NCBI GenBank assembly: GCA_030378105.1
Contig: JAUCGL010000025.1
Coordinates: 1 to 40,054 of the forward strand
Direction of reading: 5' to 3'
DNA: 40,054 nucleotides
Origin: Candidatus Halobeggiatoa sp. HSG11
GTDB taxonomy: Bacteria; Pseudomonadota; Gammaproteobacteria; Beggiatoales; Beggiatoaceae
In this document: positions 2,076 to 28,402 of the stretch, piece after piece
Layout: the number at the start of each line of letters is the position of its first letter
Numbering within the stretch: position 1 is the first letter of the stretch
Notes under the pieces: generated by a model
Database searches by the model: none
The model's input: the letters and a program-made list of their open reading frames with translations, nothing else
Told to the model about the DNA's origin: nothing
Position numbers and translations under genes: made by a program

Positions 2076-5000
2076 CTAAAAATCACACTCCAACTCACCT
2101 GGCATTATTTCAATACACAAATCATTCGGAGCTATTTCTAAAAACAGGTCAAAAAATAATATTTCATAAACTTCAGTGCTACGAGTTTTGATTTCTGTTT
2201 CAATAGCAATACTATATCTGATACTCCCGTCACTATTAGACACAATACTTGGTTCAACTGGTTCAGAAATCCGTTCATTTTGCACAGTAAAGTTAGGATG
2301 CACAAAATATGATTTGCCTTGATATAAAACTGCAAAAGTTCCATCAGCTTTATAAACAACCTGCTCAACTCCTTCAAATTTGAGAGCTTCTTCAATAAAC
2401 ACATCTGGAGACAAAACCGTTGGTCGGATTGTTTGAGCAGTACCATCTGGATATTTTATCTTTCTGATTTTAGCATGGGAAGAACGCTTGCGTTGATTGA
2501 TAACATCACATTCCAATTCACCTGGCCTTATTTCTATACATAAATTATCTTGAATAAAATCTTCTACAAATGGGTCAAATATTGCTATTAAATAAATTTC
2601 AGTGCTGCGAGTCCGATTGGAACGTTTCATTATGACATCACCACGTTTCCCAACCCTAACTTCGCTATCTGTTACTTCTGATAATATCACTGGGTCTTTG
2701 GGAGCAGGAATCACTCTAAATTGTTGTCCTTCAGGAGTAGTTATGGTGTAAAAACCTCCGGGGCCAACTGATAAACCAATAGAAATTTCATCAGTATCAA
2801 CTTGAATGATATTGTCAGCATCAGGAATGAAGGTATATAGCTTACCTGTTTGAGGACCAGTACCTTTCACATTTAAAATTCCATTTTCGTCTTGAGACAA
2901 TACAAAGTCAGTCAAGTCTTCCTCATCTAAAGCCTTAACCGTAGATTGTAATAATGAATATTTGCCATAACCACCAACTCCAATACTTTTACGCATATTA
3001 ACTATATATGGTAAATTAACTGATTTAGGCAATAAATACCGAGCATTTAATTTAAAATCAAACGGTGCTACAAATTTACCTGAGTTTAAATCAAGCGTCC
3101 AACCTTTTGGTACTAACCTATTTATTAAGCTTATATTGGCAAAATCTGTATTGACAAAAAATTTAGCAACATTTTCACTTAACATAGCTTCAAATTCAGG
3201 TTCATTAAGAGTTTCTATATGTTCTGGAGTCAATTCTTGCAAAACCTCAATCGGCAAATCACCCATATTTTCACTTGTTAGACCACTGAAAGCCATAATT
3301 GGTATTTGAGCAAATTGTTCTGTGGTTAAGCCTTCAAATCCTGTGATAATTGACATTTGTCTAGCTGTCATAACACTGAAAGAACCAGCAGGAATAGTTT
3401 TAATATGTTTACCAGTGAAAATGGCCAAAGCTTCTAATTCTAAATTTGAGAATTGTTCAGCAGTTAAATTGGCAATATATTCATCACTTAAACCAAAATC
3501 TGCTGGGGTATATGGTTTGGTTGCTATACTTACCCCTTCACCCAATATAACATTTTTGGACAGTCGCACTGTTGGGCTTAAGTGAACATTGGACAGAACT
3601 GTGCCGGGCATGATTATAACATCGGTAAGTACTGGCTTATCTATTGGATTACCAGTGATTGTTCCAGCAACTTTGCCACCTCTAACAACTGTACCCGAAG
3701 CTAAATAAACATCTTGAATAATTCCACCAATTTGGCTTTCATTGATTATATTGCCGGATAATATTCCACCACTTAATTTAGTTCCGATAAATGTTATGTT
3801 TTCTATAATGCCTTTATTCAGAATTGTACCGCTTAAATAGCCACCAGTTAAGCTGGCATCAGTATCTATAACAGAATTTGCAACTAAACCTAGGTTATTA
3901 ACATTGGCTTTAAATACGGCGTAAGAAACACTGCCAGTTTCACCAATATTTATATCTTCTGGAAATATATTTTGCCCAACATCACAAATACCATTAACAT
4001 TGTCGCTGTATACATTACATGGAATTGGTAAGTCATAGACTAACTCCAGAGGTTCTATAGTTGTACTTAAATCTGGTACTGCAATTCCGCCGTCATCAAT
4101 AATGATTCCATCAACTCCAGTATCATCTCCAAGTTGACCATCAGTCAGAGTTAAACTAACTTTAACTATACCAACTAAATCATTTATATCTGCCAGTCCA
4201 AAAGTTACATTGGAGAGATTATACCAATTAACAGTACTGTTGTTTCCGGGAGTGGTAGGGCCATATTTACGATAAATAAAATCATCTAAACTGTTAATAT
4301 TTTTATAATATATATCAAGATGTGCTGTCCCTGATGTTTCTAATTCAAAAGTAACTAAACTTTCTGGGAAAGAATAGCTTTCAGTGGATGCTGGCAAACT
4401 AGCTATATCAACTAGAGTAGCATTTTTGATAGAGCAGTCTTGGCAAATTAGAATGATTGCTCCTAAATCTATTTTACTCACTGAATCTACAATATTAACT
4501 ATAACATCAGCTATTAACAGGTTAGTATAACCAACATCGTCACTACTAATTTTATGGACAATAGTGTTGATGTGAGTATCTTCTTCTATCAAATCATCAT
4601 TGACTGCAATAACATTTACGGTTTGCTTGATATTCCAATTAGTTGAAGTAAATACAAGCGTATTAGGAGAGACTTGGCTATGTTCGCTAGTAGTTAAATT
4701 GATGGTAACTGGATAAGTCGGTTCAACAGCTAAAACTAAAGTGTAAGAGCTGCCAGCACCTTCTTCAAATACAGTTATTTGGTTACTGGAAAGCAGGACA
4801 TTAGGTTTATCATTGTCGGTAACATTAACGATTAAACTTTCTACCGTTAGGTTGTTGTAATTAATATCCACACTGGTTGTATTAATGTGTACTGTGTGGA
4901 TTTCATTGGTTATTATTTCATCTTCTATTGAAACGACAGCTATAGTTTGAGGGTTATTCCAATTATTATCATCAAAGGTAATAGATTTTGGAGATAAAGT

Positions 5001-7580
5001 AATACCAGCTTCTGGAATAAAATTAACCGTAACTGGTTGAGTTGGGGCCATAGTTAAAGCCACAGTTATGTTATCGCTCTCACCTTCATTAAAATTAAGA
5101 TTATAGGTAGATAATAAAATATTGCTTATGTCATTATCTATAATATTAACAGTAACATTCTCAACTTCTAAATCTTTATAATTTAAATCTTCACTACTAA
5201 CTTGATGCTGGATGGGGTTATGTTTATGTTCGCCTTCAGCAAGCTTATCATCTTCTACGGAAACAGTTACATCTTGTGGTATATTCCAAGTTTCGGTTGT
5301 GAAAACTAATGTTGTTGGATTAAGAGTAGTATTTCCATTGGTGCTTAATGTTATGCTAACGTTATCAATAGGTTGGCTGGCCAATACGATATTGTAACTA
5401 TTAACATCACTTTCATTAATAATGATATTGTTAATTGATAGATGGACATTTGGACTGTCATCATCGGTAACTTGGACTATAACATTTTCTATTTGAAGAT
5501 TGTTGAAATTATTATCGTCACTAGTTACGATATGCGAGATAATATGTTCATGTAATCCTTCTGCTAAATCATCATTAACATCAGTTATTTGTACTGTTTG
5601 TAAAATATCCCAATTGCTGGCATCAAAGGTCAATGAGGTTGGTTCAAAAATTAACTCTTCTGTATTTTCAAAAGTTATTGTAACCGGTCCAGTTGGAGCA
5701 AAATTTAATGATAAGCTATAGCCATTTTTGGAAATTCCTTCAATTAAACTAACTGTATTAGTTGAAATTTCAACATTGGATGTAATGAAAGTTGCGGTAC
5801 AAGCTTTCTCTTTATTGATTAGTATTTCACCATTGCTATCACAATCTCCTGTCCAACCGTTGAATAGCCAACCGGTGTCTGGAGTTGCAATTAAGGTAAG
5901 TTCGGTTTGGTCAGCATAATCATATTCGCAAATATCGCCACAGTTAATGCCATATTCGACTGGAACTATGTTACCATTGCCTATTTTTTCTATGGTTAAT
6001 TTATAATATACGGTTATTGGACAAGTTGAAGTGGTTGCACTTGCTGTTGCTGCTGCGGAGTCAATGGTTCCATCTGTTGCTTTAACGGAATAACTGTAAG
6101 TTGTTTCACAGGATAAGCTGCTATTATTGTAATTTGTGGCATCGGCGGCGGTTGTTGAGATTAAGCTTCCTGCTCGTTCTATTTTAAAACCAGTTTCACT
6201 TGTGCTGTTATCAGTCCAAGAGAGATTTATTTGACTTTCGGAAGCTGTTGTTGCAATTAAATTTGTAGGTGCTTCTGGTGCAGCAATTTCATAGGCTCCA
6301 ATATCACAAGGGTCAGCTACGGTTTTGGGACGAGTGGCACTGCGTTGGTCAGTTGCTTCGCAGGAACCATTGTCGCCAGCATTAATTGCTAGACTGCCGT
6401 TTAGTAAGGCCATTGTTTGGGTGTCACCACCGTTGTCGGCTAATGAGCTTAAAAGTGGGTCGCCACTAAAGGTTGAGCTACAACTACCGTCCATAATTAT
6501 GTTGTTGGTGTTGGTGGCAATAGTTCCATAGTTTTTGCAGTCTCCGCCACTTGTACTATTAGCAATGATAGTATTTTTTAAGTTCAAAGTTCCGTAATTT
6601 ACAATTCCAGCACCTGGATCGCCGGCTGCCGCAGAATTGTTTGAAAAAGTGCTATTATTGACGGTAGCTGTATCTCCTGTTCCAACACTTAAACCAGCAC
6701 CACGCCCTCCGACTGCTGAATTATTGACGAAGGTACTATTATTAACGGTTATGGTGTTACCATTGGTACCAACATCAATTCCAGCATTATGCTTGGCAGA
6801 ATTTCCAGTAAAAGTACAATTGTTAATGGTGACATTAATTCCGGGAGTTCCTGACATGCGAATACCTCCACCGTTGTTAGTACCTACATTTCCATTAGCA
6901 ATTGTTAAACTATTAAACGTCACTGTTCCACTAATTATTTCAAATACTCTGACTGCATTATTCCCACTGATAGTTATTTTTTGTCCAGTACCATCAATAG
7001 TGAGATTTTGAGCAATGTTTAATTGACTAGTCAAGGTGATGGTTTGCCCAGCTATACTTGGGTCAAAGGTAATTGTATTGCCAGCATTGGCGTTGGCAAT
7101 GGCTTCGCGTAGGGTGTTTTGTCCCAAGCTGTAGTTACCATCTTCCGTATCGGCGGTACTGCTAACCACGAGGCTTATTACTTCAACTGTCACAGTTGCA
7201 ATATTGGAATCAGCTATACCGTCGTTGATTTTGTAGGTAAAAGTACGAGTACCAAAAGTATTGGGGGTGTAAGTGAATGCACCAGTGTTGGCATCGTCAA
7301 TCACAGCAGCACCACCATCATCATCGACAATTATATAAGTGAAAGCATCACCATCAGAGTCATAGCTAACAAAACTAGCCAAGGTATCACTGAGAGGCGT
7401 GTTTTGTTTGGTTGAAAATGGCCAAGTCATATCACCATTTAAAGTTCCATCGTTGCTATTGATTGAACTATCAACTGTGGTTGTGCCGGTATTGTCTTCA
7501 AATTTCCAATAACCGACTAAATTTGGTTCAGTGCCGGTTAAGATATTGGGTAGTCCTCCAAAAAGTAGTGATAACTCCAA
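2076..7580 (-). pseudogene. Giant mosaic exoprotein A, carboxy-terminal fragment
   Basis: This 1834-codon frame is the downstream part of disrupted gene A. Its first dozen codons come from the MITE at 7549-7640 and the genuine sequence begins at NILTGTEPNLVGYWKFEDN, the end of a LamG domain. Then follow: a cadherin-like Ig module (about 62-137), a CSLREAI-type right-handed beta-helix ending in a choice-of-anchor Q motif (138-433), fibronectin type III (435-521), a Cys-containing InlB-like repeat (523-600), four Calx-beta-like repeats of about 105 residues (601-1030), a choice-of-anchor U domain with GQLGDDTGVDGIIIDDGG (1032-1168), a second beta-helix (1183-1350), a helical tandem repeat (1355-1477) and a C-terminal module ending in PGELECDF. 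No membrane anchor, LPXTG or other known sorting signal is seen. It lacks its own signal peptide, so this fragment is unlikely to be exported. An adhesive or surface role is inferred from the modules. Confidence 0.8.
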
Positions 7581-7640
7581 AAAACATGTTAAGTTTCAAA
7601 TACCTAATCAGGTTTAACACTACATATTGGAGGACTACCA
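7549..7640. mobile_element. 92-bp MITE inside giant gene A with 7-bp target duplication
   Basis: The ends GGTAGTCCTCCAAaaaGTAGTG and (reverse complement of the right end) GGTAGTCCTCCAAtatGTAGTG are near-perfect inverted repeats. The element is flanked on both sides by GATATTG (7542-7548 and 7641-7647). Removing the element and one duplicate leaves ggttaaGATATTGttcatattgg, which aligns without gaps to the intact paralogous cassette near 8536 (ggttaaggtattattcatattgg) and restores an open LamG frame. There is no transposase. A diverged relative is at 27958-28026. Confidence 0.88.
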
Positions 7641-10223
7641 GATATTGTTCATATTGGCTTGGATTTCGGCTTCAGTGCGGACATCATCCCAAACACGGAC
7701 TTCATCTATTTGTCCGTCAAAAAAAAGACCGTTAGTTCCCATATACCTCATACTTCCAAAATATAATTGGTTAATTATTGGAGTATTTGTAAAAGAAGCC
7801 GAAGAAGCACTTAGTGTTCCATTAACATATAAAGATACGTTAGTTCCATTTTTGACCATAGCCAAATGAGTCCACATATTAGCAGTTAAAGAATCAGCAG
7901 CAGCTAATAAATTCGTAACAGAGGATGGTGCACCGTATGCGATGTCAAATTTTGAAAGATTGATACGAAGTTGTATTATATTTTTTGAATTTCCAGTATC
8001 TCCATAATCAATAATATCTTGATTAGTAACAGTATTTTGTCTTACCCAAGCTTCCAACGTCAGAGTTGATGGAGAACTAGAAAATGTTGGTGAGGCATTG
8101 ATATAATCATCCACCCCATCAAAAGTTAATGCAGTACCAAAACCAACAATCGGGGCATTATTCGGTAAAACTTCAACTGTCACAGTTGCAACATTAGAAT
8201 CAGCTAAACCATCATTGACTTTGTAGGTAAAAGTACGAGTACCAAAAGTATTGGGTGTGTAAGTGAATGCACCAGTGTTGGCATCATCAATCACAGCAGC
8301 ACCACCGTCATCATCGACAATGATATAAGTGAAAGCATCACCATCGGGATCAGAGTTCACAAAATTAGCCAAAGTGTCACTGAGAGGCGTGTTTTGTTTG
8401 GTTGAAAAAAGCGGTGGCCAAGTAATACCACCATTTAACGTGCCATTGTTGCCATTGGGTGAACTATCGGTAGCGATTGTTCCAGTATTGTCTTCAAATT
8501 TCCAATAACCGACTAAATTTGGTTCAGTGCCGGTTAAGGTATTATTCATATTGGCTTGGATTTCGGCTTGGGTGCGGGCAGCTTTCCAAAGACGAACTTC
8601 GTCTATTTGACCATTAAATTCATCCGTTCCACCACAATTATCCCGTCTTCCAATCCAATTTGTTCCACTTGAATCAGTGATATTACCTGTTGTGTTATCC
8701 ATTACATTGGCTTGTTCTATACCATCCAGATAAACAATAACGGTATCTGAAGTGACATTTCTAACAGCAGCTAAATGATGCCAATTACCGTCATTAACAA
8801 CAATGTTAAGTGTTACAGTAATTTCTGTGCTGCTTGTTCCCCTTAATCTAAATACAGGATTACCATTACTATCTAAAAATAACTGAATAACTCCATTCGT
8901 GAAGCATTTTTGTTGGCTAAAAATTATTTGTAGATTTGTTGAAGTTGTTTTGAAATAAGCTTCAAGTGTTATATTGTCAGTTGCTAAAAAATTTAAACTG
9001 CTGGTTTCAGGTAAATCAATACCATCATCCGTCCCATCAAAAGTTAATGCAGTACCAAAACCAACAATCGGGGCATTATTCGGTAAAACTTCAACAGTCA
9101 CAGTGGCAACATTAGAATCAGCTAAACCATCATTGACTTTGTAGGTAAAAGTACGAGTACCAAAAGTATTGGGTGTGTAAGTGAATGTACCTGTATTGGC
9201 ATCGTCAATCACAGCAGCACCACTGTCATCATCGACAATAATATAAGTGAAAGCATCACCATCGGGGTCAGAGTTCACAAAATTAGCCAAAGTGTCACTG
9301 AGAGGCGTGTTTTGTTTGGTGGAAAATGGCCAAGTTATATCGCCATTTAAAGTTCCATCATTGGTATTCGGTGAACTATCAGCGGCGGTTGTGCCAGTGT
9401 TATCTTCAAATTTCCAATAACCAACTAAATTTGATTCCGTGCCGGCTAAGGTATTATCCATATTGGCTTGGATTTCAGCTTGGGTGCGGGCATCATCCCA
9501 TACGCGGACTTCGTCTATTTGTCCACTAAATTCATGAAGACTATCCCATGGTGCATTTCCAATTCGAAAATTGTCAGAGCCAGTATAATTATCTGTATTA
9601 GCAGACTGTCCAACTAAAACACCATTTTGGTATATTTTTTTACCAACTCCTTGTTCAAAAACACTAGCCCAGTGATGCCAATTATTATCAATGACAGGAC
9701 TACTGGCAATAAAATTATTATTATAAAAGTTTAATCCAAAGTTATTACCCGGACTAAAACCAAAGTATATTCCAGCATTGGTTGTAGAAGTACCTATGCC
9801 AATTATGGCATCTGCTGTTCCAGTACCGTTGCGTTTGGCCCACGCTTCATATGTAAACGAACTATTGGCAATGTTAATACCACTTGGCACATCAATATAA
9901 TCATCCGTCCCATCAAAAGTTAACGCAGTACCAAAACCAGCAATTGGACTAGTATTCTCATAAGCCAAACTAAAATATTGCCCATTGCTCAAATTAACCC
10001 CACTAAATTCAATTTTATTACCATTAAAAGTTCCACCAGTCGTAACACTTGCATTACTAAAATCACCATCGGCATCAATCAACAAAGAATACTTAGTATT
10101 ATCAACTAAATCAGCCCCAGCCACATTAGTCAAATCAAAACATAAGTGTAGTAGTACCAGTCTCCCCAGTTTCCGCCACTTTCCATTCCCGTGCAAAACG
10201 TCTAATATTACTCGGCACTTCAA
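7635..10223 (-). pseudogene. Giant mosaic exoprotein A, middle fragment (LamG / Ig cassettes)
   Basis: This is an 862-codon frame in the middle of disrupted gene A. About 29 codons at its start are out-of-frame sequence; the real homology begins at FDLTNVAGADLVDNTKYSLL. Three cassettes follow, each a LamG/concanavalin-like domain (FGTALTFDGTDD...WHHWASV...DGQIDEVRVWDDARTQAEIQANM..TL) coupled, in the first two, to a cadherin-like Ig domain (FTYTPNTFGTRTFTYKVNDG). The third LamG is cut at MNNIW by the MITE at 7549-7640. The cassettes are nearly identical at DNA level around 7180, 8168 and 9088, so the array grew by tandem duplication. LamG modules usually bind glycans or proteins. The fragment has no signal peptide and is probably not a functional gene by itself. 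Confidence 0.8.
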
Positions 10224-11229
10224 TGGAAGAAAAAGTCAAAGTACCATCATCATTCCCCCAAATCAAAAAATTACCATTCGCAATCCCAGAACCAGCAATA
10301 GTCACCACACTATCAGTATTAACACTACGAGATTTTGGTTGACTCAAACCACTGCCAGTACCGATGCCAGCAATATCATTGATGTAGCCGCTGTGAGAAC
10401 CAGTTGAAGGGTAAATAGCAGTACCACTGGAATTAACGTAATTAATCGTACTGTCCAAAGTTATACCATATTTAATAGCCAAATAACTATTTACTTGCTG
10501 TGTTTCTGCCACATTCAGCACTTTATCATACAAAATAATTTCTGCTATATGGCCTTTCCATACTTGTCCAACAAAAATATGTTTACCGATCATAGCAGCC
10601 GGCGAAGTACTAAGATCAGTATTCCAAGGCGTAACAAAGGTATGAGTCCAACCCAATTGTCCATTTACATAAAGTTGACTTATATTGGTGTTATCATAAT
10701 TAGCAATAACAATATTAGGGATAACAGTACTCCAAACAACAGCAGCTTCATTATAACCATTAAGATAACCGCTCCAAGATATACTAGTAGTTGAGTCATG
10801 GTCAAATAATGCACAAATTTCTCCCGATGGTAATATAGGAGAGCTTCTTCCGTAAGATAAAATGGGACCATCATTATTAGCAAATGGTTTTGCCACTGTA
10901 ATCACGGTTCTTGCATTATTACCAGTTGGAAAATTTGTAAAAGCGTTTAAATTCATAAAATCATCCGTACCATCAAAATTCAAAGCTGGATTAAAATTCA
11001 TGGCATCTACCACAACACTTGGTTGACTAGCTCCAGTACCCTGACTGGCTTGGAGATTATTTAGACTTTGGTCATCCCAAGTCCCACCAGTTGCATCAAC
11101 ATCAGCTTTAAGCCACAACTGCAAATTGCTTGAGACACCACCCGGATTGGCTTGTACCAATGGAGTTAACATCATCACCAACATAGCAATGATAAATCGT
11201 AATTTAGTTTTAAAAGTTAAATAATTCAT
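10135..11229 (-). pseudogene. Giant mosaic exoprotein A, amino-terminal fragment
   Basis: This 364-residue fragment holds the true start of gene A. It has a Sec signal peptide (MNYLTFKTKLRFIIAMLVMMLTPLVQA), then a LamG-like jellyroll (LQLWLKADVDATGGTWDDQS ... FDGTDDFMNL) and a DUF8202-type domain (VNSYLAIKYGITLDSTINY ... YINDIAGIGTGSGLSQPKSRS). It stops at TTTLMF where paralogous sequence would continue. Deleting one T from the TTTTGA on the coding strand (A-run at 10137-10140 on the plus strand) joins it to FDLTNVAGADLV of the next fragment. A ggaag sequence lies 9-13 bases before the ATG. Up to the break the protein closely matches the two amino-terminal units of gene C. A truncated secreted protein could be made from this fragment. 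Confidence 0.82.
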
Positions 11230-11543: not shown

Positions 11544-14500
11544 CTAAAAGTCACACTCCAATTCACCTGGCATTATTTCAATACACAAATCATCAGGAGC
11601 AGCTTCTAAAAATGGGTCAAAAGATAACATTTCATAAACTTCAGTACTGCGAGTGTTAGTTTCTGATTCAATAGCAATGCTATATTTGATACTACCGTCA
11701 TCATTAGGCACAATACTTGGTTCAACTGCTTCAGAAATCCGTTCATTCTTCACGGCAAAGTCAGGAACAACAAAGTATGGTTTGCCTTGGTATAAAATTG
11801 CAAAAGTTCCATCAGCTTTATAAACAACCTGTTCAACTCCTTCAAATTTAAGAGCTTCTTCAATAAATACATCTGGAGATAAAACTGTTGGCCGGATTGT
11901 TTGAGCAGTACCATCAGAATATTGAATTTTTCTGGTTTTAGCACGAGAAGAACGTCTGCGTTGATTACCATCACATTCTAAATTACCGGGAGAAATCTCT
12001 ATACATAAATTATCAGCAAAATCTTCTACAAATGGGTCAAACATTGCTATTTCATAAACATCTGTGCTGCGAGTTCGATTGGAGGATTTCATCATCACAT
12101 CACCACGTTTACCAACTGTTACTTCGCTATCAGTTGTTTCTGCCAAAGCTATTGGGTTTTTAGGAGCTGGCACAACTTTATATTGCTGACCTTCTGGAGT
12201 AGTTATGGTGTAAAAACCACCAGCTCCGACTGACAAACCAATAGGAGTTTTATCAGTATCAACTTGAATAACATCGTCAGCATCAGGAATAAAAGCATAT
12301 TGCTTTCCTTCTGAATCACCTATACCTTCCACATTTAAAATTCCACTATCTTCTTGAGATAATACGAACTCAGTTAAGTTTTCCTTTTCTAAAGATTCAG
12401 TAGAAGATTCAAGTAATGGAGTACCAGCACCACCTATTCCAAATCCACTGTTCATATCTGGTAAAGTCGGCATATTTTCTGAGGTTGAAAGACTCTTTGG
12501 GGTTATTTTGGCACCCATTGGAGCTGTTAATTCACCGGTTTCTAAATTTAAATCCCAACCTTCAGGCAATAATTTGACTATATTTTTTGGTTTAATGGTG
12601 TCAATATTAAAATTAACAAACAGCTTAGAAACATTTCTACTTGGCATCCTTTGAAAGACTTTAACATTAAGTGTATTTACATGCTCTGGAGTAAATTCTC
12701 CTAAAACTTCAGGCGAAAAATCACTCATATTTTCTTTAGTTAAACCTTCTAAAGCTTCCACTGGAATTTCGGCAAACTGTTCCTCAGTTAAACCTTCAAG
12801 TCCCTCTATAACAGCCATTTGTTCTGGCCCCATTTCAGTTAAGGCTTCTGGCGGAATGTCTGCGATATCTTCAGGGTCAAAAGTTGTCAAAGCTTCTAAT
12901 TCTAATTTGGAAAATTGTTCAGCATCTAAATTAGCTATATCTTCAGCATCTATACCAAAATCTTCTGGTTGATATGGTTCAGTCGGTATGATAACGCCTT
13001 CACCTAATATAACATCATCTGGCAGTTTAACTGTTGGACTCAAAATAATGTTGGTTAAAACTGTACCGGGCAGAACTTCAACATCGGTTATTAGTGGAGG
13101 ATTAATTGGACTACCAGTTATAGTTCCACCAATTTTGCCACCTTTAACAACTGTGCCTGAAGTCAGTTCAACATCTGTAATAGCACCACCAATTTGACTT
13201 TCATTGGTTATATTGCCGGACAAAGTTCCACCACTTATTCCACTTCCAACAAATGTGATGTTTTCTATGGTGCCTTCATTTTCAATAGTACCAGTCAAAG
13301 AACCACCAGTTAAAATAACTCCTTCTCCTATAGTTGAATTACCAATCATTCCTTGGTTTTCAACATCGCCTTCAAATGTAGCATTAGAAAGACTACCACC
13401 ATTGCCTAAAGTTATTTCTTCGCTAATAGTTTGCTCTCCTACATTGCAAACACCACTTGTACCACATACAGTTGGTAAATTATTTTCTTGTACTACTTCC
13501 GGGTCTTCAATTGTAATTTCATCTAGGTTAACCCCCTCAGGTAAATCTTCTTCTAATAGAGGCGGTAAGTCTTCTTCTGCAATTGGTTCTTGGATAGCAA
13601 TTCCACCGTCATCAATTATGATTCCATCAACTCCGGTGTCATCTCCGAGTTGGCCATCAGTCAAGGTTAAATTTACCTTAACCATATTATTAACTAGTTC
13701 AAAAGTTACATTGGAAAAGGTATACCATCCTATGGTACTGCTATTCCCCGGAGTTGTTGGCCCATATTTGCGATAGACAAAGTTATCTAAACTATTAATA
13801 TTTTTGTAATATATACCTACATGAGCGGTTTCAGTTGCTTCTAATTCAAATCTTATCAAATCAGTTGGGAAAGAATAGCTTTCGGTTGATTGAGGCAAAG
13901 ATTCTATTGCTACCGTTCCAGCATTTTTTATAGTGCAACCTTGACATTCTAAAGCAATTTCTCCTAAATCCATTTGAGCTACTTCATCAACAATATTCAC
14001 CGTAACATTAGTAACTAACAGATTATTATAACCAATATCATTACTGATAACTTTATGAGTTATGGTATTAATGTGAGTATCTTCCTCAACTAATTCATCA
14101 TCAACTGCGGTAACGGTAACAGTTTGCTCAATATTCCAATTGGTTGAAGTAAATGTTAGCGTATTGGGAGAGACTTGCGTATGTTCGCTAGCAGTTAAAT
14201 TAATGGTAACTGGATTGGCCGGTTCAACAGTTAAAACTAAAGTATAATTGCCGCCAGTACCTTCTTCAAATACGGTTATTTGGTCACTGGAAAGCAGCAC
14301 ATTAGGTTTTTCATTGTCGGCAACATTAACGATTAAATTTTCTACAGCCAAATTGTTGTAATTAAGGTCATTACTAGTTGTATTTATATGTACTGTATGG
14401 ATTTCATTGGTTATTATTTCATCTTCTATTGAGGTGACAGATATAGTTTGAGACGCATTCCAATTATTACTATCAAAGGTAATAGATTCTGGAGATAAAG

Positions 14501-17500
14501 TGATACCAGCTTCTGGGGTTAAATTAACCGTTACTGGTTGAGTTGGAATTATACTCAAAGCTATGGTTATGTTATCGCTATCACCTTCATTAATATTGAG
14601 AGTGTAGGTAGATAATAAAATACTGCTTATATCGTTATCTATGACATTAACCGTAACATCGTTAACTGCTAAACCATCATAATTTAAATCAGCACTACTA
14701 ACTTGATGTTGGATAGGGTCGTGTTGATGTTCACCTTCGTCTAAACTATCATCTTCTACGGAGATGGTTATATTTTGTGGTATATTCCATGTTTCAGCAG
14801 TGAAAATTAATGTTGTTGGGTTAAGAATGGTATTTTCATTGGTGTTTAATGCAATGGTGACATCATTAACTGGTTGGCTGGTCAATACGATATTATAACT
14901 GTTAATATCACCTCCTTCATTAACAATAACATTGTTAGTTGAAATATGAACAGCCGGACTGTCATCATCGGTTATTTGAACTATAACATCCTCTATTTGA
15001 AGATTGTTGAAATTAATATCACTACTACTAATGGTATGAGAGATAGTATGTTCGTGTGAACCTTCAGATAAATTATCATTTATATCAGTTATTTGTACTG
15101 TTTGCGGAATGTTCCAATTGCTGCTGTCAAAAGTTAGTGATTCTGGTTCAAAAAGCAATTTCTCTCCCCCATTTAAGGTTATAATAACTGGTTCGGTTGG
15201 AGCAAAATTTAATGATAAGCTATAGCCATTATTGGAAATACCTTCAGTTAAACTTATTGTGTCAGTTGAAATTTCAATATTGGGTTTAATGAAAGTTGCA
15301 CTACAGCTTTTATCGCTATTTATCTGCACTGCACCATCATCATCACAGTCTCCTGCCCAACCAGTGAATATCCAACCGGTATCTGGAGTTTGAGTTAAGA
15401 TAAGTTCGATTTGGTCGGCATAGTCATATTCGCAAGTAATACCACAGTCAATTCCGTAAGAAGTAGTTATGGTTCCGTTGCCAGTTTTGCTGACTGTGAG
15501 TTGATATAATACGGTTACTGGACAAGCTGAGGTGGTTGCACTTGCTGTTGCTGCTATGGAATCAACGGTTCCATCTGTTGCTTTAACAGAATAACTGTAT
15601 GTTGTTTCACAAGATGGACCACTATCACTATAACTTGTGACATCGGCAGCAGTAGTTTGAATTAAAATACCATCACGTTCTATTTTAAAACCAGTTTCAT
15701 TAGTAATGTTATCAGTCCATGATAGATTTATTTGAGTTTCGGAAGCAGTTGTCGCATTTAAACTTGTAGGAGCTAGTAGTTCATATTCATAGGCTCCTAT
15801 ATCACAAGTATCATTCTTGGGACGAGTTTCACCACGTTGGTCAGTTGCTTCGCAAGTTGCATTATCGCCGGCATTTATCGCTGGACTACCAGTTTGTAAA
15901 GCCATTGTTTGAGTAGTACCACCATTATCGGCTAATGCACCTAACATTGGATCACCACTAACTGTCGGGCTACATGTATTGTCTTCAATTAGGTTGTTGG
16001 TATTAGTAGAAATAGTTCCTGTATTTTCACAATCTGTAGTAGTGCTATTGGCGATTATTGTATTTGACAGATGCAAAGTCCCTGAATTTATGATACCTTT
16101 ATCATTGCCTGAAATGGTAGAGTTTTTTATATTTAATGTATCAGTATCTCTAATACCTTCCCAAATATTAGTATTATTGAAAATTGTACTGTTATTAATA
16201 TTTATAACGTTATCAGAATATATAGCATAAAAAAAACCATTATTATTAGCAACAGTAATATTATTAAATGTAACATTAATATTTCCCATAGAATAAAGAG
16301 ATTTTCCAGTATTTCCAAAAAAATTACTATTATTAATAGTTAAAGTACTATAAGAATAAACAATACCACTATTACCATTAAAAGTATTGTTGGAAAACTC
16401 GCAATTATTAAACGTCAAAATCCCATCATTATAAAAAAAACCAGAAATATTTCCGCCAGTACTATCAGAAAATGTACTATTATTTATTGTTAAATCGCCT
16501 CCACTATTGAGTCTAATAGCACCATTGTAATCAGCACCAGCATAACTTTTGGTAAAAGTTAAATCATTAATAGTCATTGTGCTAGAAATTTGGAAAAACT
16601 GTGTATCTGCCAAATCTGCCGTACCATTACCATTTGCATCACCACTAAGAGTTATATTTTGCCCAGTACCATCAATAGTTAAATTTTTATCAATAGTTAA
16701 TTGACTACTGAAAGTTATAGTTTGCCCTGCAATGCTGGAATCAAAGGTTATTGTGTCACCTGAATCGGCATAAGTAATAGCTTCTCGTAAAGTATTATTT
16801 CCAGAACTGGTATCTGCATCTAAAACATCCGAAGTATTATCAACTACTAAGTTTTTAGGTGGATGGATAAATTCATAAGCTCCAATATCACAACTAGCAT
16901 CTCTTGTTTCACCACGTTGATCAGTGGATTCACAAGTTCCACTATCACCAGCATCTATCGCTGGACTACCAGCTTGTAAAGCCATTGTTTGAGTAATACC
17001 ACCATTATCGGCTAATGCACCTAACATTGGATCACCACTAACTGTCGGGCTACATGTATTGTCTTCAATTAGGTTGTTGGTATTAGTAGAAATAGTTCCT
17101 GTATTTTCACAATCTATAGTAGTATTATTGGCAACTATTGTATTTGACAGATTTAAAGTATTCCAATTTGTGATACCTTTGTCATTATTGGAAATGGTAG
17201 AATTTTTTATATTTAATATGACTAAATCACCTGTCCAAATATCAGTATTATTAACAATTGTGCTATTATTGACATTTATGTTTTTATCAACCCAATGACT
17301 GTACAAAAATCCCGCATTATTATTAGCAGTAACATTGTTAAATGTAACAGCACTACCTGCCGAAATATATATAACCCTTCCAGAATTTCCGGAAAAACTA
17401 CTATCATTGAAAGTTAGTTGACTAGTTTGATGGAAAACAATGCCACTATTATCATTAAAAGTATTGTTAGAAAATTCGCAATTATTAAACGTCAAAGCCC

Positions 17501-18875
17501 CATCATTATAAATAAACCCAGAAATATTTCCGCCAGTACTATCAGAAAATGTACTATTATTTATTGTTAAATCGCCTCCACTATTGAGCCTAATAGCACC
17601 ATTGTAATCAGCACCAGCATAACTTTTGGTAAAAGTTAAATCATTAATAGTCATTGTGCTAGAAATTTGGAAAAACTGTGTATCTGCCGAATCTGCCGTA
17701 CCATTACCATTTGCATCACCACTAAGAGTTATATTTTGCCCAGTACCATCAATGGTTAAATCTTTATCAATAGTTAATTGACTACTGAAAGTTATAGTTT
17801 GCCCTGCAATGCTGCTAAAGGTTATTGTGTCACCTGAATCAGCATAAGTAATAGCTTCTCGTAAAGTATTATTTCCAGAACTGGTATCTGCATCTAAAAC
17901 ATCCGAAATATTATCAACTACTAAGTTTTTAGGTGGTGGAAATTCATAAGCTCCAATATCACAACTAGCATCTCTTGTTTCACCACGCTGATCAGTGGAT
18001 TCACAAGTTCCACTATCACCAGTATCTATTGCAGGACTACCAGTTTGTAAAGCCATTGTTTGGGTATCACCGCCGTTGTCTGCTAGTGTGCTAAGTAGCG
18101 GATCGCCAGTGAGGGTTGCACTACAGCTTCCGTCTTCAACTAGATTATCACTACTGACACTTATACCACTGCAATCACCACCTGTATTACCGGCAATAAT
18201 GGTATTTGTTAGATTGACTGTACCACTAGTATGATGTATACCACCGGTTCCAAGAATAGCTGAATTATTAGAAAAGGTACTATTATTAATTATTGTTGAT
18301 ATCACGTTGTAATTCGTAATACCTCCACCATATCGGTCAGTTGAATTACCAACAAAAGTACTATTGTTAACTATTAAAGTTGCTTCACTACTGCTAATAG
18401 CACCTCCATCCCAACTTGCTGAATTATTAGAAAAGGTACTGTTATTGACTGTTACTGTTGTTCCCGAATCAACACGAATACCAGCTCCAGCATTAGTATC
18501 AGTACTTACATTGGTTTTTCCATTGGCAATTGTTAAATTATTAAATATCACTGTACCAGAACTAACGTCAAACACTCGCACCGCATTATTGCCACTTATA
18601 GTTATATTTTGTCCGGTACCATCAATGGTTAAATTTTTATCAATATCTAATTGGCTACTGAGAGTGATAGTATAATCAGCATCAAAATTGATAGTGTCAC
18701 CGGCAGTTGCATCAAGAATAGCTTGTCGTAAAGAATTGGCTCCACTATCCGAGTTATTTGTGACAGTGATAGTTGCCGCTTGTACCAATGGACTTGGCAC
18801 AAAAATCATTAATAATGTCGCTATTAATATAGCAACGATAAATCGTAATTCAGTTTTAAAAGTTAAATAATTCAT
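11544..18875 (-). CDS. Giant mosaic exoprotein B (intact, beta-helix / Calx-beta / anchor U)
   Basis: This 2443-residue secreted protein is the only undamaged member of the array. Modules in order: signal peptide (1-33, ending SPLVQA); three CSLREAI-type right-handed beta-helix units, each closing with a choice-of-anchor Q motif (about 34-310, 315-668, 672-1026; for example GSPAIDTGDSGTCESTDQRG); fibronectin type III (1030-1117); an InlB-like repeat with four Cys (1120-1195); four Calx-beta-like repeats (1197-1630; LTFTSTNWNIEQTVTVTAVD); choice-of-anchor U (1632-1765); a hexapeptide-like beta-helix (about 1800-1950); a helical tandem repeat (1965-2088; EQFAEIPVEALEGLTKENM); and the shared C-terminal module ending in LCIEIMPGELECDF. 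Beta-helix units two and three are a recent 1.08-kb duplication. Weak ribosome binding site (aaggtag). Export by Sec is likely. Final location is unknown because no known anchor is visible. An adhesin or matrix role is inference. Confidence 0.88.
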   Translation of the reverse strand: MNYLTFKTELRFIVAILIATLLMIFVPSPLVQAATITVTNNSDSGANSLRQAILDATAGDTINFDADYTITLSSQLDIDKNLTIDGTGQNITISGNNAVRVFDVSSGTVIFNNLTIANGKTNVSTDTNAGAGIRVDSGTTVTVNNSTFSNNSASWDGGAISSSEATLIVNNSTFVGNSTDRYGGGITNYNVISTIINNSTFSNNSAILGTGGIHHTSGTVNLTNTIIAGNTGGDCSGISVSSDNLVEDGSCSATLTGDPLLSTLADNGGDTQTMALQTGSPAIDTGDSGTCESTDQRGETRDASCDIGAYEFPPPKNLVVDNISDVLDADTSSGNNTLREAITYADSGDTITFSSIAGQTITFSSQLTIDKDLTIDGTGQNITLSGDANGNGTADSADTQFFQISSTMTINDLTFTKSYAGADYNGAIRLNSGGDLTINNSTFSDSTGGNISGFIYNDGALTFNNCEFSNNTFNDNSGIVFHQTSQLTFNDSSFSGNSGRVIYISAGSAVTFNNVTANNNAGFLYSHWVDKNINVNNSTIVNNTDIWTGDLVILNIKNSTISNNDKGITNWNTLNLSNTIVANNTTIDCENTGTISTNTNNLIEDNTCSPTVSGDPMLGALADNGGITQTMALQAGSPAIDAGDSGTCESTDQRGETRDASCDIGAYEFIHPPKNLVVDNTSDVLDADTSSGNNTLREAITYADSGDTITFDSSIAGQTITFSSQLTIDKNLTIDGTGQNITLSGDANGNGTADLADTQFFQISSTMTINDLTFTKSYAGADYNGAIRLNSGGDLTINNSTFSDSTGGNISGFFYNDGILTFNNCEFSNNTFNGNSGIVYSYSTLTINNSNFFGNTGKSLYSMGNINVTFNNITVANNNGFFYAIYSDNVININNSTIFNNTNIWEGIRDTDTLNIKNSTISGNDKGIINSGTLHLSNTIIANSTTTDCENTGTISTNTNNLIEDNTCSPTVSGDPMLGALADNGGTTQTMALQTGSPAINAGDNATCEATDQRGETRPKNDTCDIGAYEYELLAPTSLNATTASETQINLSWTDNITNETGFKIERDGILIQTTAADVTSYSDSGPSCETTYSYSVKATDGTVDSIAATASATTSACPVTVLYQLTVSKTGNGTITTSYGIDCGITCEYDYADQIELILTQTPDTGWIFTGWAGDCDDDGAVQINSDKSCSATFIKPNIEISTDTISLTEGISNNGYSLSLNFAPTEPVIITLNGGEKLLFEPESLTFDSSNWNIPQTVQITDINDNLSEGSHEHTISHTISSSDINFNNLQIEDVIVQITDDDSPAVHISTNNVIVNEGGDINSYNIVLTSQPVNDVTIALNTNENTILNPTTLIFTAETWNIPQNITISVEDDSLDEGEHQHDPIQHQVSSADLNYDGLAVNDVTVNVIDNDISSILLSTYTLNINEGDSDNITIALSIIPTQPVTVNLTPEAGITLSPESITFDSNNWNASQTISVTSIEDEIITNEIHTVHINTTSNDLNYNNLAVENLIVNVADNEKPNVLLSSDQITVFEEGTGGNYTLVLTVEPANPVTINLTASEHTQVSPNTLTFTSTNWNIEQTVTVTAVDDELVEEDTHINTITHKVISNDIGYNNLLVTNVTVNIVDEVAQMDLGEIALECQGCTIKNAGTVAIESLPQSTESYSFPTDLIRFELEATETAHVGIYYKNINSLDNFVYRKYGPTTPGNSSTIGWYTFSNVTFELVNNMVKVNLTLTDGQLGDDTGVDGIIIDDGGIAIQEPIAEEDLPPLLEEDLPEGVNLDEITIEDPEVVQENNLPTVCGTSGVCNVGEQTISEEITLGNGGSLSNATFEGDVENQGMIGNSTIGEGVILTGGSLTGTIENEGTIENITFVGSGISGGTLSGNITNESQIGGAITDVELTSGTVVKGGKIGGTITGSPINPPLITDVEVLPGTVLTNIILSPTVKLPDDVILGEGVIIPTEPYQPEDFGIDAEDIANLDAEQFSKLELEALTTFDPEDIADIPPEALTEMGPEQMAVIEGLEGLTEEQFAEIPVEALEGLTKENMSDFSPEVLGEFTPEHVNTLNVKVFQRMPSRNVSKLFVNFNIDTIKPKNIVKLLPEGWDLNLETGELTAPMGAKITPKSLSTSENMPTLPDMNSGFGIGGAGTPLLESSTESLEKENLTEFVLSQEDSGILNVEGIGDSEGKQYAFIPDADDVIQVDTDKTPIGLSVGAGGFYTITTPEGQQYKVVPAPKNPIALAETTDSEVTVGKRGDVMMKSSNRTRSTDVYEIAMFDPFVEDFADNLCIEISPGNLECDGNQRRRSSRAKTRKIQYSDGTAQTIRPTVLSPDVFIEEALKFEGVEQVVYKADGTFAILYQGKPYFVVPDFAVKNERISEAVEPSIVPNDDGSIKYSIAIESETNTRSTEVYEMLSFDPFLEAAPDDLCIEIMPGELECDF
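15790..17940 (-). repeat. 1.08-kb tandem duplication within giant gene B
   Basis: Sequence at 15941-16060 recurs at 17021-17140 (offset 1080) and sequence at 16480-16860 recurs at 17557-17940 (offset about 1077), with only scattered differences. Each copy encodes one complete beta-helix unit from VVDN.SDVLDADTSSGNNTL to the choice-of-anchor Q end. The central part of each copy is the most diverged, consistent with selection or conversion acting unevenly across the repeat. Confidence 0.85.
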
Positions 18876-19113: not shown

Positions 19114-22101
19114 TTAAAAATCACACTCCAACTCACCTGGCATTATTTCAATACACAAATCATCAGGAGCTGCTTCTAAAAATGGGTCAAAAGACAACAT
19201 TTCATAGACTTCAGTACTGCGAGTGTTAGTTTCGGATTCAATGGCAATACTATATTTGATACTACCGTCACCATTAGGCACAATACTTGGTTCAACTGCT
19301 TCAGAAATCCGTTCATTTTGCACGGTAAAATTAGGAACAACAAAATATGGGTTGCCTTGATATAAAATTGCAAAGGTTCCATCAGCTTTATAAACAACCT
19401 GCTCAACTCCTTCAAATTTAAGGGCTTCTTCAATAAACACATCTGGAGATAAAACTGTTGGCCGAATTGTTTGAGCAGTACCATCTGAATATTCAATTTT
19501 TCTGGTTTTAGCACGAGAAGAACGTCTACGCAAATTGCCATCACATTCTAATTCGCCGGGAAAGATTTCTATACATAAATTATCTGGAGCAAAGTCCTCA
19601 ACAAATGGGTCAAACATAACTATTTCATAAACTTCTGTGCTGCGAGTTCGGTTAGAAGATTTCATCATCACATCACCACGTTTCCCAACCCTAACTTCGC
19701 TATCAGTTACTTCTGACAATATCAATGGGTCTTTAGTAGCAGGAATCACCTTATATTGCTGTCCTTCTGGAGTAGTTATAGTGTAAAAACCTCCTGGACC
19801 AACTGATAAACCAATAGGAATCTCATCAGTATCCACTTGAATAATATTGTCAGCATCAGGAATAAAAACATATAGCTTGCCTTTTTGAGGACCAGTACCT
19901 TCCACATTTAAAATTCCATTTTCGTCTTGAGACAATACAAAGTCAGTCAAGTCCTCCTCAGCTAAAGCCTTAACCGTAGATTGTAATAATGAATATTTGC
20001 CATAACCACCAACTCCAATGCTTCTACGCATATTAACTATATATGGCATTTTGACTAATTTGGGCAATAAATACCGGGCAGTTAATTTGGAACCAAACGG
20101 TGCTACAAATTTACCTGAGTTTAAATCAAGCGTCCAACCTTTTGGTACTAACCTATTTATTAAGCTTATATTGGCAAAATTCGTATTGACAAAAAATTTA
20201 GCAACATTTTCACTTAGCATGGCTTCAAATTCAGGTTCAGCAATGATTTCTAAATGCTCTGGAGTTAATTCTTGCAAAACTTCAACCGGCAAATCACCCA
20301 TATTTTCACTTGTTAGACCACTGAAAGCCATAATTGGTATTTGGGCAAATTGTTCTGTGGTTAAGCCTTCAAATCCTGTGATAATTGACATTTGTCTAGC
20401 TGTCATAACAGTGAAAGAACCAGCAGGAATAGTTTTAATATGTCTACTGGTAAAAGTAGCCAAAGCTTCTAATTCTAATGTGGAGAATTTTTCAGCAGTT
20501 AAACTAGCAATATCTGCATCACTTAAACCAAAATCTGCTGGAGTATATGGTTCGGTTGCTATCGTAACCCCTTGACCAAATATAACATTTTTTGACAGTC
20601 GCACTGTTGGGCTTAAGTGAACATTGGACAGAACTGTGCCGGACATGATTGTAACATCAGTAAGTACTGGCTTATCTATTGGGTTGCCAGTGATGGTTCC
20701 AGCAATTTTGCCACCTCTAACAACTGTACCTGAAGCTAATTCAACATCTTGAATGACTCCACCGATTTGACTGGCATTGACAATATAACCTGATAATATA
20801 CCACCACTTAATTCGGTTCCAATAAATGTTGTATCTTCTATAATGCCTTTATTCAGAATTGTACCACTCAGATAACCACCGACTAAAGTTGCTCCGGTAT
20901 CAATAATTGAATTGGCAATCAAACCTTGATTATTAACATCATCTTTAAATATGGCATAAGCAACACTTCCATCCTCACCAATATTTATATCTTCTGGAAA
21001 TATATGTTGTCCAACATCACAAATACCATTAACAGTATTGCTGTGTACGTTGCATGAAAGTGGTAAGCCATAGGGTAATTCCAGAGGCCCTGTTATTGTA
21101 CTTGAATCTGGTACTGCAATTCCGCCATCATCAATAATGATTCCATCAACTCCAGTATCATCTCCAAGTTGACCATCAGTCAGAATTAAACTAACTTTAA
21201 CTATACCAACTAAATCATTTATATCAGTCAATCCAAAAGTTGCATTGGAAAGATTATACCAAGCTGTTGTATTGCTTTCACCCGGAGTTGTGGGGCCATA
21301 TTTACGATAGACAAAGTTATCTAAGTTGGTGATATTTTTATAATATATATCAAGATGAGCTGTCCCTGATGTTTCTAATTCAAAAGTAACTAAACTTTCT
21401 GGGAAAGAATAGCTGTCGGTTGATTGTGGCAAAGAAGCTATATCAACCAGAGCAGCATTTTTGATAGAGCAATCTTGGCAAACTAAAATGATTGAACCTA
21501 AATCTACTGTTGAATTATTATCAGTTACATTGACGGTTAAAGTTTCTATCGTGTTGGAATCATCACTGACAACACGTATAGTATGAATTTCATTAGTTAT
21601 AACATCTTCTATCGCTGTTATCGCTATTGTTTGAGATAAATTGGAATCGGTAAAAGTTATGGTTTCTGGAAATACTGAAATGCCAGCCTCTGCAATAAAG
21701 CTGATTGTAATTGGTTGATTTGGAGTAGAACTAACAGACACAGTTATATTACCAGTTTCACCTTTATTTATTTTAATATTGTTGGTGGAAAATAAAACAC
21801 TTTTAATATCAATAATTTTAACCGTAACATCATTTATAGGTAGATTGTGATAGTTTGGGTCATCACTACTTACCTGATGGTGAATAGATTCGTGTTGATG
21901 TTCTGTTTCATTAAGATGGTCATCATATGCAGAAACAGTGACATTTTGTAGTACATTCCAATTTTCATCGGTAAAAATTAACGTGGTTGGGTTAAGAGTG
22001 GTATTTTCACTAGTATTTATGGTAATGGTAACATAACTCATTGGTTGGCTAGTCAGCATAATGTTGTAACCACTATCAGTGTCGTTTTCATTGATAACCA
22101 T
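19114..22101 (-). pseudogene. Giant mosaic exoprotein C, carboxy-terminal fragment
   Basis: This is the downstream part of disrupted gene C. Codons remain open upstream of the first ATG (22101) as far as the insertion at about 22460, encoding KIEISTTTINLTEGISNDGY and the rest of a Calx-beta-like repeat. The fragment therefore really spans 19114 to about 22458. It has three Calx-beta-like repeats where A and B have four, then a choice-of-anchor U domain, a beta-helix (SGNILS-like hexapeptides), a helical tandem repeat (AEKFSTLELEALATF; EQFAQIPIMAFSGL) and the C-terminal module with two FDPF...LCIEI motifs. Its carboxy half is closer to that of A than to that of B. There is no signal peptide in this piece. 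Confidence 0.8.
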
Positions 22102-22460
22102 AGCGTTATTTGAGATATGGACACCAGCACTATCATCATCAGTGGCTTGAACTATGACATTTTCTACTTGAAGGTTATTGAAATTAATGTCATTGCTAGT
22201 AACTGTGTGAGAAATGATATGTTCGTGTGAACCTTCGGCTACATCGTCATTTAGATAAGTTATTTGTATGGTTTGTGGAATATCCCAATTATTACTGTCA
22301 AAAGTTAATGAGTTTGGTTCAAAAATAAGTTCTTCGGTGCTATCTAAATTTATAGTGACTGGTTCTGTTGGCGACGTACTAAGCCATAAACTATAACCAT
22401 CATTGGAAATACCTTCTGTTAGGTTGATTGTAGTAGTTGATATTTCTATTTTAGAAATGA

Positions 22461-22740
22461 GTTTCGCAGAAATTTCATGATGTCCCCGGAACGTCCATGT
22501 CCCGTTGACTAATCAATTTTTCAGCGAAACCGGTTATAATTGCCCCGACACGTCCGGTCTCATCGGGCGACTCTGCACTGAAGCAGCTCCGTCCCACCGA
22601 CTCCCCCATGACTTAACGGTGAGCTTGTTCAAAATTTCAAGAAATGCACTCCGTTTAACTATTTCTTCAAATTTAAGAACTCTCACCTAGTCGCGGACTA
22701 CTCGACTTCGGCTTCGCCTCTCCATGTCTCGCAGCGTTGG
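22461..22740. mobile_element. Insertion element of about 280 bp disrupting giant gene C
   Basis: Paralogues A and B read straight through ..aatgaaagttgc.. at this point. In C, ttagaaatga is followed by about 280 foreign bases (gtttcgcagaaatttcatg ... catgtctcgcagcgttggacg) before aagttgcgg resumes. No target duplication is visible. The insert is visibly more GC-rich than the gene around it. Its interior (ctctgcactgaagcagctccgtcccac) resembles the 3' end of IS200/IS605-type tnpB elements, and such elements insert without target duplication; that assignment is tentative. The same element with an interior deletion of about 130 bases is at 28255-28402. Confidence 0.7.
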
Positions 22741-25700: not shown

Positions 25701-26909
25701 ACTACCAGTGAAAGAATAAGCCGTAGCAGCAGAAAAATCAGTACTATTACTAACTAATAAGTATTTTGCATTTGTACCTGATATAGTGACAGTTACACTA
25801 CCAACCGTACCAGTTTCCTGTACCTTCCAAATCTTTGTCAAATGTATCTTATCACCGGAAGTTTGATTGTAAGTCACAGTACCATCATTATTGCCCCACA
25901 CAAGAAAAGAATTGTCAGCAGAAAATGCCCCGCCATTATCTATGGTTATCAGTGCATCAGTATTGATACTTTTGGATTTGCGTTGGTCAAGGTTTGAAGC
26001 ATCATCACGTCCAATACCAGCAATATCATTGATATAACCACTGTGTGTGCCAGTTGAAGGATAAATAACCGTTGAACCGTCTGAAGCAAGATAATTAACG
26101 GTGCTGTCCAGCGTGATGCCGTATTTAATGGCTAGATAGCTTTCAATTTTTTTTAAATCAAGAGTTCCATTAAGAGCAGCACTGTAAACAATGATTTCGG
26201 CAACACTACCATTCCAGTCATCCGCACCCGGTACCCAAGGATTCTCACCAATATACCCATCGGCTGCTGCTGTTACTGTATCCCAAGGTGGTGTAAAAGT
26301 AAATGGTGTTGAAGCATCAGCTGTACCATTACCATAAATGTAGCCTTTATCACCATTACCATAGATACCACTAATGATGCTTGGAGTAGTATCCCCCCAC
26401 GTTAAACTAGTACTTTCATAAAAATGGAATCCACCATTAATAACCGGTCGTCCGGTTCCAGAATGAAAACTAAGTGCTGATGCTTGAGTTCCCACTATTG
26501 CTCCGTAGTAAAAAATTATAGGATTTGTAACAGAATTTGTTTGATTTGCTACCGCAATCATAGTACGATCACCACTACCTGTTGGTAAACCAACTAGATC
26601 GCTTAATTTAAAATTTTGATTTGCAGCTGCATCAAAATCAAGTGTTGGGTTAAAATTGAACGCATTGGTAGCAAAAGTCGGTTGCTGAGAGGCAATAGCT
26701 TGGTCAGCTGTGCGAGTATTTGGACTTTGATCGGTCCAAGAAGTAACACCAGCACCGTCAGTGGTAGTACTGGTTCCTGCATTAGCTTTAAACCACAATT
26801 GTAAATCCGTAGAAACCCCACCCGGATTTGCTTGTACCAACGGAGTTAACATCATCACCAACATAGCAATGATAAATCGTAATTTAGTTTTAAAAGTTAA
26901 ATAATTCAT
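22698..26909 (-). pseudogene. Giant mosaic exoprotein C, amino-terminal fragment
   Basis: This 1403-codon upstream part of gene C ends inside the insertion; its last residues (QRCETWRGEAEVE) are encoded by the element. It has a signal peptide identical to that of A (MNYLTFKTKLRFIIAMLVMM), then two LamG-like plus DUF8202 units (about residues 28-420 and 425-825; FDAAANQNFKL, YLAIKYGITLD, YINDIAGIG), a beta-helix with choice-of-anchor Q end (about 835-1130; GSPAINAGDNGTCESTDQR), two nearly identical fibronectin type III domains (about 1133-1310; INLSWTDNSNNETGFKIERD) and an InlB-like repeat (about 1313-1390). A good ribosome binding site (aaggag, 9 bases before ATG) supports the start. The fragment could be exported but would lack the shared C-terminal module. 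Confidence 0.82.
22981..23505 (-). repeat. Tandem duplication of a fibronectin type III domain in gene C
   Basis: Two copies of about 260 bases start near 22981 and 23241 (acaagctga.gtggttgcacttgctgttgttgctgtggaat). They encode consecutive FN3 domains that differ at only a few positions. Genes A and B carry a single FN3 at the corresponding place. Confidence 0.8.
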
Positions 26910-28026: not shown

Positions 28027-28254
28027 ATTTTTATATACAGAGCAATAAACTTTTCTGGTATTAATTTAACTATATTATCTAGCTTAATGCACACAATATG
28101 CTTTAATGTAAATGGCTTCTCTTAATTTCAAAAAAGGCAAATCATGTTGTTTATTAAATATTTATAACCTTGTTATCAAATTGTACATTTATTTCAGCAA
28201 ATGCAGAACCTACATTCCGCACACCCATATCCAACATATAATCTTTCATAAGGA

Positions 28255-28402
28255 GTTTCGCAGAAATTTCATGATGTCCACAGAACATCCATGTCTCGTG
28301 AACTAATCAATTTTTTAACTTAACTATTTCTTCAAATTTTTGAACTCTCACACAAATCACAGACTACTAGACTTCGGATTCGCCTCTCCATGTCTCGCAA
28401 CG
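28255..28402. mobile_element. Internally deleted copy of the element found in gene C
   Basis: Left arm gtttcgcagaaatttcatgatgtcc and right arm gacttcgg.ttcgcctctccatgtctcgca.cg match the element at 22461-22740. About 130 central bases are missing here. The two copies are in the same orientation and about 5.8 kb apart. The gap 28027-28254 shows no gene. Confidence 0.7.

Follow-up and report, generated by a model that had tools for sequence, protein, structure and literature searches.

A C-terminal tandem beta domain of Beggiatoaceae proteins as a candidate cassette for surface display

Three genes on one contig of Candidatus Halobeggiatoa sp. HSG11 end in a module that is an undescribed domain family. 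Judging from its sequence and its predicted structure, this C-terminal domain is a tandem of two homologous, beta-rich units of about 130 residues each, and a search of the literature found no description of it. We read the module, tentatively and at a little under an even chance, as a portable, uncleaved C-terminal surface-display or anchoring cassette, the proteins of which would pass the inner membrane by Sec, fold in the periplasm, leave through the T2SS, and be retained noncovalently.

Module genes of the window

The window, that is, the whole stretch of DNA analyzed (40,054 nucleotides), is an entire contig (G000:C161) of a 5.2-Mb genome in 326 contigs; among genome contigs searched with a closer subset of the alignment, the named closest relatives were Thioploca, Thiomargarita, Parabeggiatoa, and Thiotrichales MAGs. 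A single module gene of the window, P0001, is intact. From the N terminus, its product consists of a signal peptide, three choice_anch_Q parallel beta-helix domains, an fn3-like domain, an InlB-B-like repeat, Calx-beta-like repeats, choice_anch_U, and the module, where the labels fn3-like and Calx-beta-like rest on similarity to paralogues. Its features are as follows.

11544..18875, minus strand: P0001, the sole intact module gene in the window, 2443 aa
18777..18875, minus strand: Sec signal peptide of P0001, MNYLTFKTELRFIVAILIATLLMIFVPSPLVQA (sequence and heuristic rule)
13593..13883, minus strand: choice_anch_U, residues 1665-1761 (41.1 bits, cut-off 32)
13047..13448, minus strand: beta-helix part of the stalk, residues ~1810-1943, hexapeptide-like (AF2 model; weak GlmU-hexapeptide match of a paralogue)
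12570..12968, minus strand: helical repeat solenoid, residues ~1970-2102, related to ALTTAQ repeats (AF2; PF20080 in 11/45 members)
11967..12374, minus strand: unit 1 of the tandem beta domain, residues ~2168-2303, ending in motif copy 1 (AF2; hhalign with unit 2)
11970..12074, minus strand: motif copy 1, residues 2268-2302, TRSTDVYE...LCIEISPGNLECD (pattern TRST.[VI]Y...LECD)
11547..11936, minus strand: unit 2 of the tandem beta domain, residues ~2314-2443, holding the most conserved block of the family, DGTAQTIRPTVLSPDVFIEEALKFEGVE (AF2; conservation)
11547..11654, minus strand: motif copy 2, C-terminal, residues 2408-2443, TRSTEVYE...LCIEIMPGELECDF (same pattern)

P0002 and P0003 are apparently the 3' parts of genes broken by small mobile elements. 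Because their 5' halves are cut off and lie upstream, neither has a signal peptide of its own, and P0001 to P0003 are not three independent complete witnesses. An element of about 281 bp (22456-22737, minus strand) splits P0003 from the part at 22698-26909, and intact paralogues align on either side of it.

2076..7580, minus strand: P0002, 3' part of the second module gene, severed from its 5' part by a hairpin element of ~92 bp
2505..2612, minus strand: motif copy 1 of P0002, residues 1657-1692
2079..2186, minus strand: motif copy 2 of P0002, residues 1799-1834, FDLF variant
7635..11229, minus strand: 5' parts of the P0002 gene (ORFs 7635-10223 and 10135-11229, mutually out of frame), with signal peptide and LamG repeats
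19114..22101, minus strand: P0003, 3' part of the third module gene (open frame to 22512), severed by the element of ~281 bp
19540..19647, minus strand: motif copy 1 of P0003, residues 819-854
19117..19224, minus strand: motif copy 2 of P0003, residues 960-995
22698..26909, minus strand: 5' part of the P0003 gene, with signal peptide, LamG, choice_anch_Q, and fn3

With two of the three window genes interrupted, several fragments, and about 20 genomic copies, the module might be taken for a lineage-specific repeat family that spreads mainly by gene conversion, leaves many decaying copies, and has no dedicated role in localization. We give this explanation next to no credence, as the fold-defining residues are kept across about 20 genera and the pairing of the cysteines is kept as well, which points to selection on the protein.

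The element of about 281 bp carries no ORF, has sharp ends (CGCTGCGAGACATGG...CTGCGAAACTCAT), occurs in about 40 genomic copies of 83-100% identity, and folds well as RNA (z -3.3); it had no match in Rfam even at an E value of 5, and no terminal repeats or target duplication were obvious. Another partial copy, 88-89% identical, lies at 28250-28403 of the window, in the interval that separates the module cluster from the gene at 28538. The hairpin element of about 92 bp that interrupts the P0002 gene (window 7548-7639, TGGTAGTCCTCC...GGAGGACTACC, with CAATATC on its flanks) is multicopy, with up to 99% identity, and similar copies are found directly downstream of further module genes (e.g., L023:5145-5232 and L033:3935-4029).

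Predicted fold and the duplicated hairpin motif

Profiles over 45 homologues align unit 1 with unit 2 over 89 columns, the greater part of each unit (hhalign probability 98.7%, E 2.9e-16). Structure prediction, which an earlier note on this DNA had proposed, returned a confident beta-rich tandem domain: from 20 sequences, AlphaFold modeled the last 345 residues of P0001 with a pLDDT of 84 and a pTM of 0.84, as beta hairpins plus one short helix per unit, the weak spots being the last hairpin (pLDDT ~60-66) and, lowest of all, the linker after the first hairpin. A helical repeat stretch precedes the tandem units, and closer relatives add a beta-helix; a model of 660 residues (pLDDT 80, pTM 0.69) places this beta-helix and the helical solenoid upstream of the tandem domain. 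The helical stretch matches PF20080 (ALTTAQ repeat) in 11 of 45 members at E values up to 1 (best, 4e-8), the window member being without a match.

The same note had recognized no known sorting domain in this region, and the searches bore this out, the tandem domain having no match in Pfam, NCBIfam, or PDB; the best hit of a profile search of PDB sequences (E 0.32) is at the level of chance. Foldseek gave no match at E 0.001 or better for either model (345 and 660 residues). For the longer one, OspA and mesothelin appeared in the weak list only (E 0.02-0.1, TM 0.3 or less). A VIA second look reached Z 3.2 at best, over 38 residues, which is noise; this is not evidence of a new fold.

The motif that had first been noticed in the window proteins, FDPF...LCIEI.PG.LECD, is indeed present twice in each of P0001, P0002, and P0003, and all six copies were located. 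The second copy stands at the very C terminus, all three proteins ending at the stop in the reported Phe, and the cysteines of each pair are 10 residues apart. Other details needed adjustment: the first copy, which had been placed about 115 residues before the end, ends 141-142 residues before the C terminus; FDPF is found in every copy but the second of P0002, which reads FDLF; and the basic patch described between the copies exists as RRRSSRAKTRKI in P0001 and P0003 only, P0002 having QRKRSSHAKIRKI. The two copies of P0001 align with a BLOSUM62 score of 131, whereas none of 2000 shuffles scored above 42, and a degenerate DNA pattern for the motif had a single, unrelated match. The duplication spans whole units of about 130 residues, with the motif as the end of each unit.

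Across the family, the weighted occupancy of the LCIEI hairpins is ~60%, and the motif sequence is well conserved in genera g1 and g2 only. When cysteines were scored near the four Cys columns, 25 of the 45 modules held all four, 10 held none, 5 held the first pair only, and 2 the second pair only; the two cysteines of a hairpin were concordant (both or neither) in 44/45 modules for hairpin 1 and in 43/45 for hairpin 2, counts that do not represent independent events, as the modules are related. The two cysteines of a pair are thus acquired or lost together, which is what a disulfide inside each hairpin would predict, and such pairing fits an oxidizing compartment. Because the cysteines come and go in pairs, FDPF...LCIEI.PG.LECD reads as a dispensable, disulfide-stapled hairpin, an optional decoration and not the signal that the duplicated motif had been taken for; the modules that miss all four cysteines and the restriction of the conserved motif to two genera both speak against the latter.

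Position, passengers, and distribution

In almost every locus read, the module lies at or near the end of the protein, and Sec signal peptides were found in P0001 and, with a crude predictor, in most intact module genes. The expectation that matches would always be C-terminal and accompanied by a Sec signal is therefore nearly correct for the first part and correct for most intact genes for the second. A crude rule detected a signal peptide in 24 of 34 5'-closed frames, the same rule firing on 60 of 138 background frames; the misses are mostly fragments, interrupted genes, or frames with a later start, and in L026 the region upstream of the gene break encodes a signal peptide. Exceptions to the terminal position include L060, L087/L109, and L110, which extend 74-253 residues past the module. 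In L087:147-2888 (L109 apparently holds the same protein) and in L110, a Cys-rich tail of 74-92 residues follows the module.

The passengers comprise FG-GAP, LRR, PARCEL/DUF285, LamG, cadherin, He_PIG, Calx-beta, and fn3 domains. Among 17 proteins, all 136 pairs match in the module and 14 of the 136 in the N terminus. Where the modules are at least 60% identical, 17 of 23 pairs are without detectable similarity over the N-terminal 200-500 residues, an example being L029 (PARCEL/DUF285) and L030 (cadherin), whose modules are 85% identical and whose N termini show no similarity. These close-module pairs indicate that the module is a cassette exchanged between passengers. Three short module proteins (L113:907-2781, L114:700-2826, and L036:2153-4372) carry no further passenger: a Pro-rich tandem repeat is all that lies between their signal peptide and the module.

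In the three short proteins, the functional head may be the cassette itself. Together with the tandem repetition of the units and with the sequence that continues after the module in L060, L087/L109, and L110, this would suit a ligand-binding or structural head or stalk (e.g., for sheath polysaccharide or neighboring cells) that is C-terminal by chance. We consider such a role rather unlikely, as a near-universal C-terminal place over unrelated passengers would be unusual for a plain binding domain.

The domains that precede the module offer a further hint as to its place. Ahead of it, choice_anch_U (NF041766) scores 41.1, 34.1, and 33.4 bits in P0001, P0002, and P0003, respectively, above the cut-off of 32, and it stands upstream of many module copies; choice_anch_Q (NF041518) is present in P0001 and P0002. 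Both models cover domains upstream of an anchor, and the module, which has no model of its own, sits at the anchor position. Since six choice_anch_U proteins without the module, from the same genomes, end right after choice_anch_U, the module appears to take the anchor's place.

The homologue search that the earlier note had suggested was run with profiles and brought out the undescribed family, mostly in C-terminal position. In its own genome there are 34 profile matches, 21 of which reach past the helical repeats at E < 1e-60 (~20 module copies). With E values up to 0.001, a search of the order found the module in 33 of 42 genomes, which represent 21 of 25 genera; in g14 and g16 the matches are weak, and G014 and G032 (4.3 Mb, closed or nearly so) have three matches each. 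In the class-level search, matches outside Beggiatoaceae went only to the helical repeats (profile positions up to ~122), the one stretch that the ALTTAQ model also matches, and came without the beta domain; when the beta domain alone was searched at phylum level, this genome was the only one of 398 with a match. The module thus appears confined to Beggiatoaceae among the genomes sampled.

Known sorting systems and a possible link to the T2SS

The exact C-terminal position of the motif and a last Phe that is conserved in the genus might suggest that the FDPF...LECDF tail acts as PEP-CTERM, GlyGly-CTERM, or the T9SS CTD do, as a sorting signal that is cleaved off and covalently processed. We regard this as very improbable. 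None of the 45 modules has a transmembrane helix at the C terminus (maximal 19-residue Kyte-Doolittle mean 0.74-1.63, median 1.04), 33 of them lack a basic tail to the extent of having no Lys or Arg in the last 8 residues, none has an LPXTG-type motif in the last 80, and neither a curated CTERM tag model nor a T9SS C-terminal tail model is among the NCBIfam matches of the 45 members at E values up to 1; a covalent sorting signal was rejected for lack of such a helix, tail, motif, or CTERM model. Furthermore, the last residue is Phe in 13/45 modules, and the motif is missing from many relatives. A signal processed at the C terminus is made unlikely by where conservation peaks, namely 100-125 residues from the end (in DGTAQTIRPTVLSPDVFIEEALKFEGVE, at 2.7 and 2.4 bits per column), and by a tail that varies or runs on in some relatives. 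Thus, where a new domain for secretion, processing, or anchoring had been proposed, the processing part is unlikely, and secretion or anchoring stands as the best guess for a C-terminal, Sec-exported, undescribed family.

Nor do the processing enzymes track the module. Exosortase (PF09721) occurs in 16 of 42 genomes, is absent from many module-rich ones (e.g., G002, G009, G024, and G060), and is present in G016 and G021, which have no module; exosortase processing was rejected on this basis. Sortase processing was likewise rejected, given that PF04203 occurs independently of the module and LPXTG is absent. This sortase (~200 aa, usually single copy) is encoded by 30 of the 42 genomes of Beggiatoaceae, among them genomes that carry the module and genomes that lack it. 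An OMP beta-signal or autotransporter C terminus was a further candidate, rejected because a terminal F or W is present in only 15/45 modules.

With the pairs GlyGly-CTERM/rhombosortase, MYXO-CTERM/myxosortase, and PEP-CTERM/exosortase, the module shares that it is a C-terminal element common to many Sec-exported proteins of one genome. However, CTERM tags are a short motif, a transmembrane helix, and a basic tail, cut by a membrane protease, whereas the module is ~300-450 aa long, soluble, and folded, and has no such helix, basic tail, or linked protease. In Bacteroidota, diverse cargo carries the T9SS CTD at its C terminus, a beta-rich folded domain that has no transmembrane helix; these CTDs are Ig-like, ~70-100 aa long, and cleaved. 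Like them, the module is a soluble beta domain at the C terminus, but no relation was found, the structure searches having given no confident match to any fold, and it differs in phylum, in its tandem units of ~130 aa with hairpin insertions, and in having no NCBIfam match. Repeats of the SLH, CWB2, GW, and LysM type are portable modules that keep varied passengers on the surface noncovalently. By analogy, the module may work alike, although no sequence or profile relation to them was found and, unlike them, the family is Gram-negative and found with a T2SS.

We infer that the module retains its proteins at the surface. According to the surface-display reading that we favor, Sec would move the module protein across the inner membrane; the cassette would fold in the periplasm, where its hairpins would oxidize; the T2SS would export the folded protein through the outer membrane; and the uncleaved cassette would remain noncovalently on the outer surface, slime, or sheath, with the passenger facing outward. 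The FDPF/LCIEI element would stabilize the cassette without itself being the sorting signal. It is tempting to go further and to speculate on a new Gram-negative sorting system found only in Beggiatoaceae, in which a soluble, uncleaved, disulfide-stapled tandem beta domain of undescribed fold would be a portable C-terminal address for diverse adhesin-like proteins, taking them out via the T2SS and keeping them on the surface or sheath of these giant sulfur bacteria by way of a putative receptor; this we consider possible, yet well short of probable.

Module proteins are probably type II-exported. GspL was above cut-off in all module-bearing genomes except the highly fragmented G058 and G059, and the genera without GspL, g23 and g4, are also without the module; g13 and g18 have the T2SS and no module. 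A 2-by-2 comparison of T2SS and module over 25 genera gives p of about 0.02 with relatedness ignored, and it rests on two genera, perhaps one loss; the T2SS step of the mechanism is weakly supported.

This loose co-occurrence, the Sec signal, and the folded C-terminal beta domain would also suit a module that is not an anchor but a recognition domain for outer-membrane export, as a T2SS or other secretion signal, in which case passengers may enter the slime. To our knowledge, T2SS substrates generally have no common sequence-conserved domain, and this counts against pure export recognition, as do the two genera with a T2SS and no module; while the present data do not separate export from retention, we think it unlikely. 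A point in its favor is VesB of V. cholerae, in which an Ig fold is the T2SS secretion signal (PMC13393428). For GlyGly-CTERM and MYXO-CTERM, surface display is T2SS-dependent (PMC11980579, PMC13393428).

Beggiatoa, Thioploca, and Thiomargarita are organisms of sheaths, mats, gliding, and epibionts, and descriptions of how they place proteins on their surface are few. If a C-terminal cassette is common to the family, it would label the surface proteome of the Beggiatoaceae, amounting to ~20 proteins in this genome; the module would also fill a gap among the domain models used in annotation and could be put to the test in cultured Beggiatoa.
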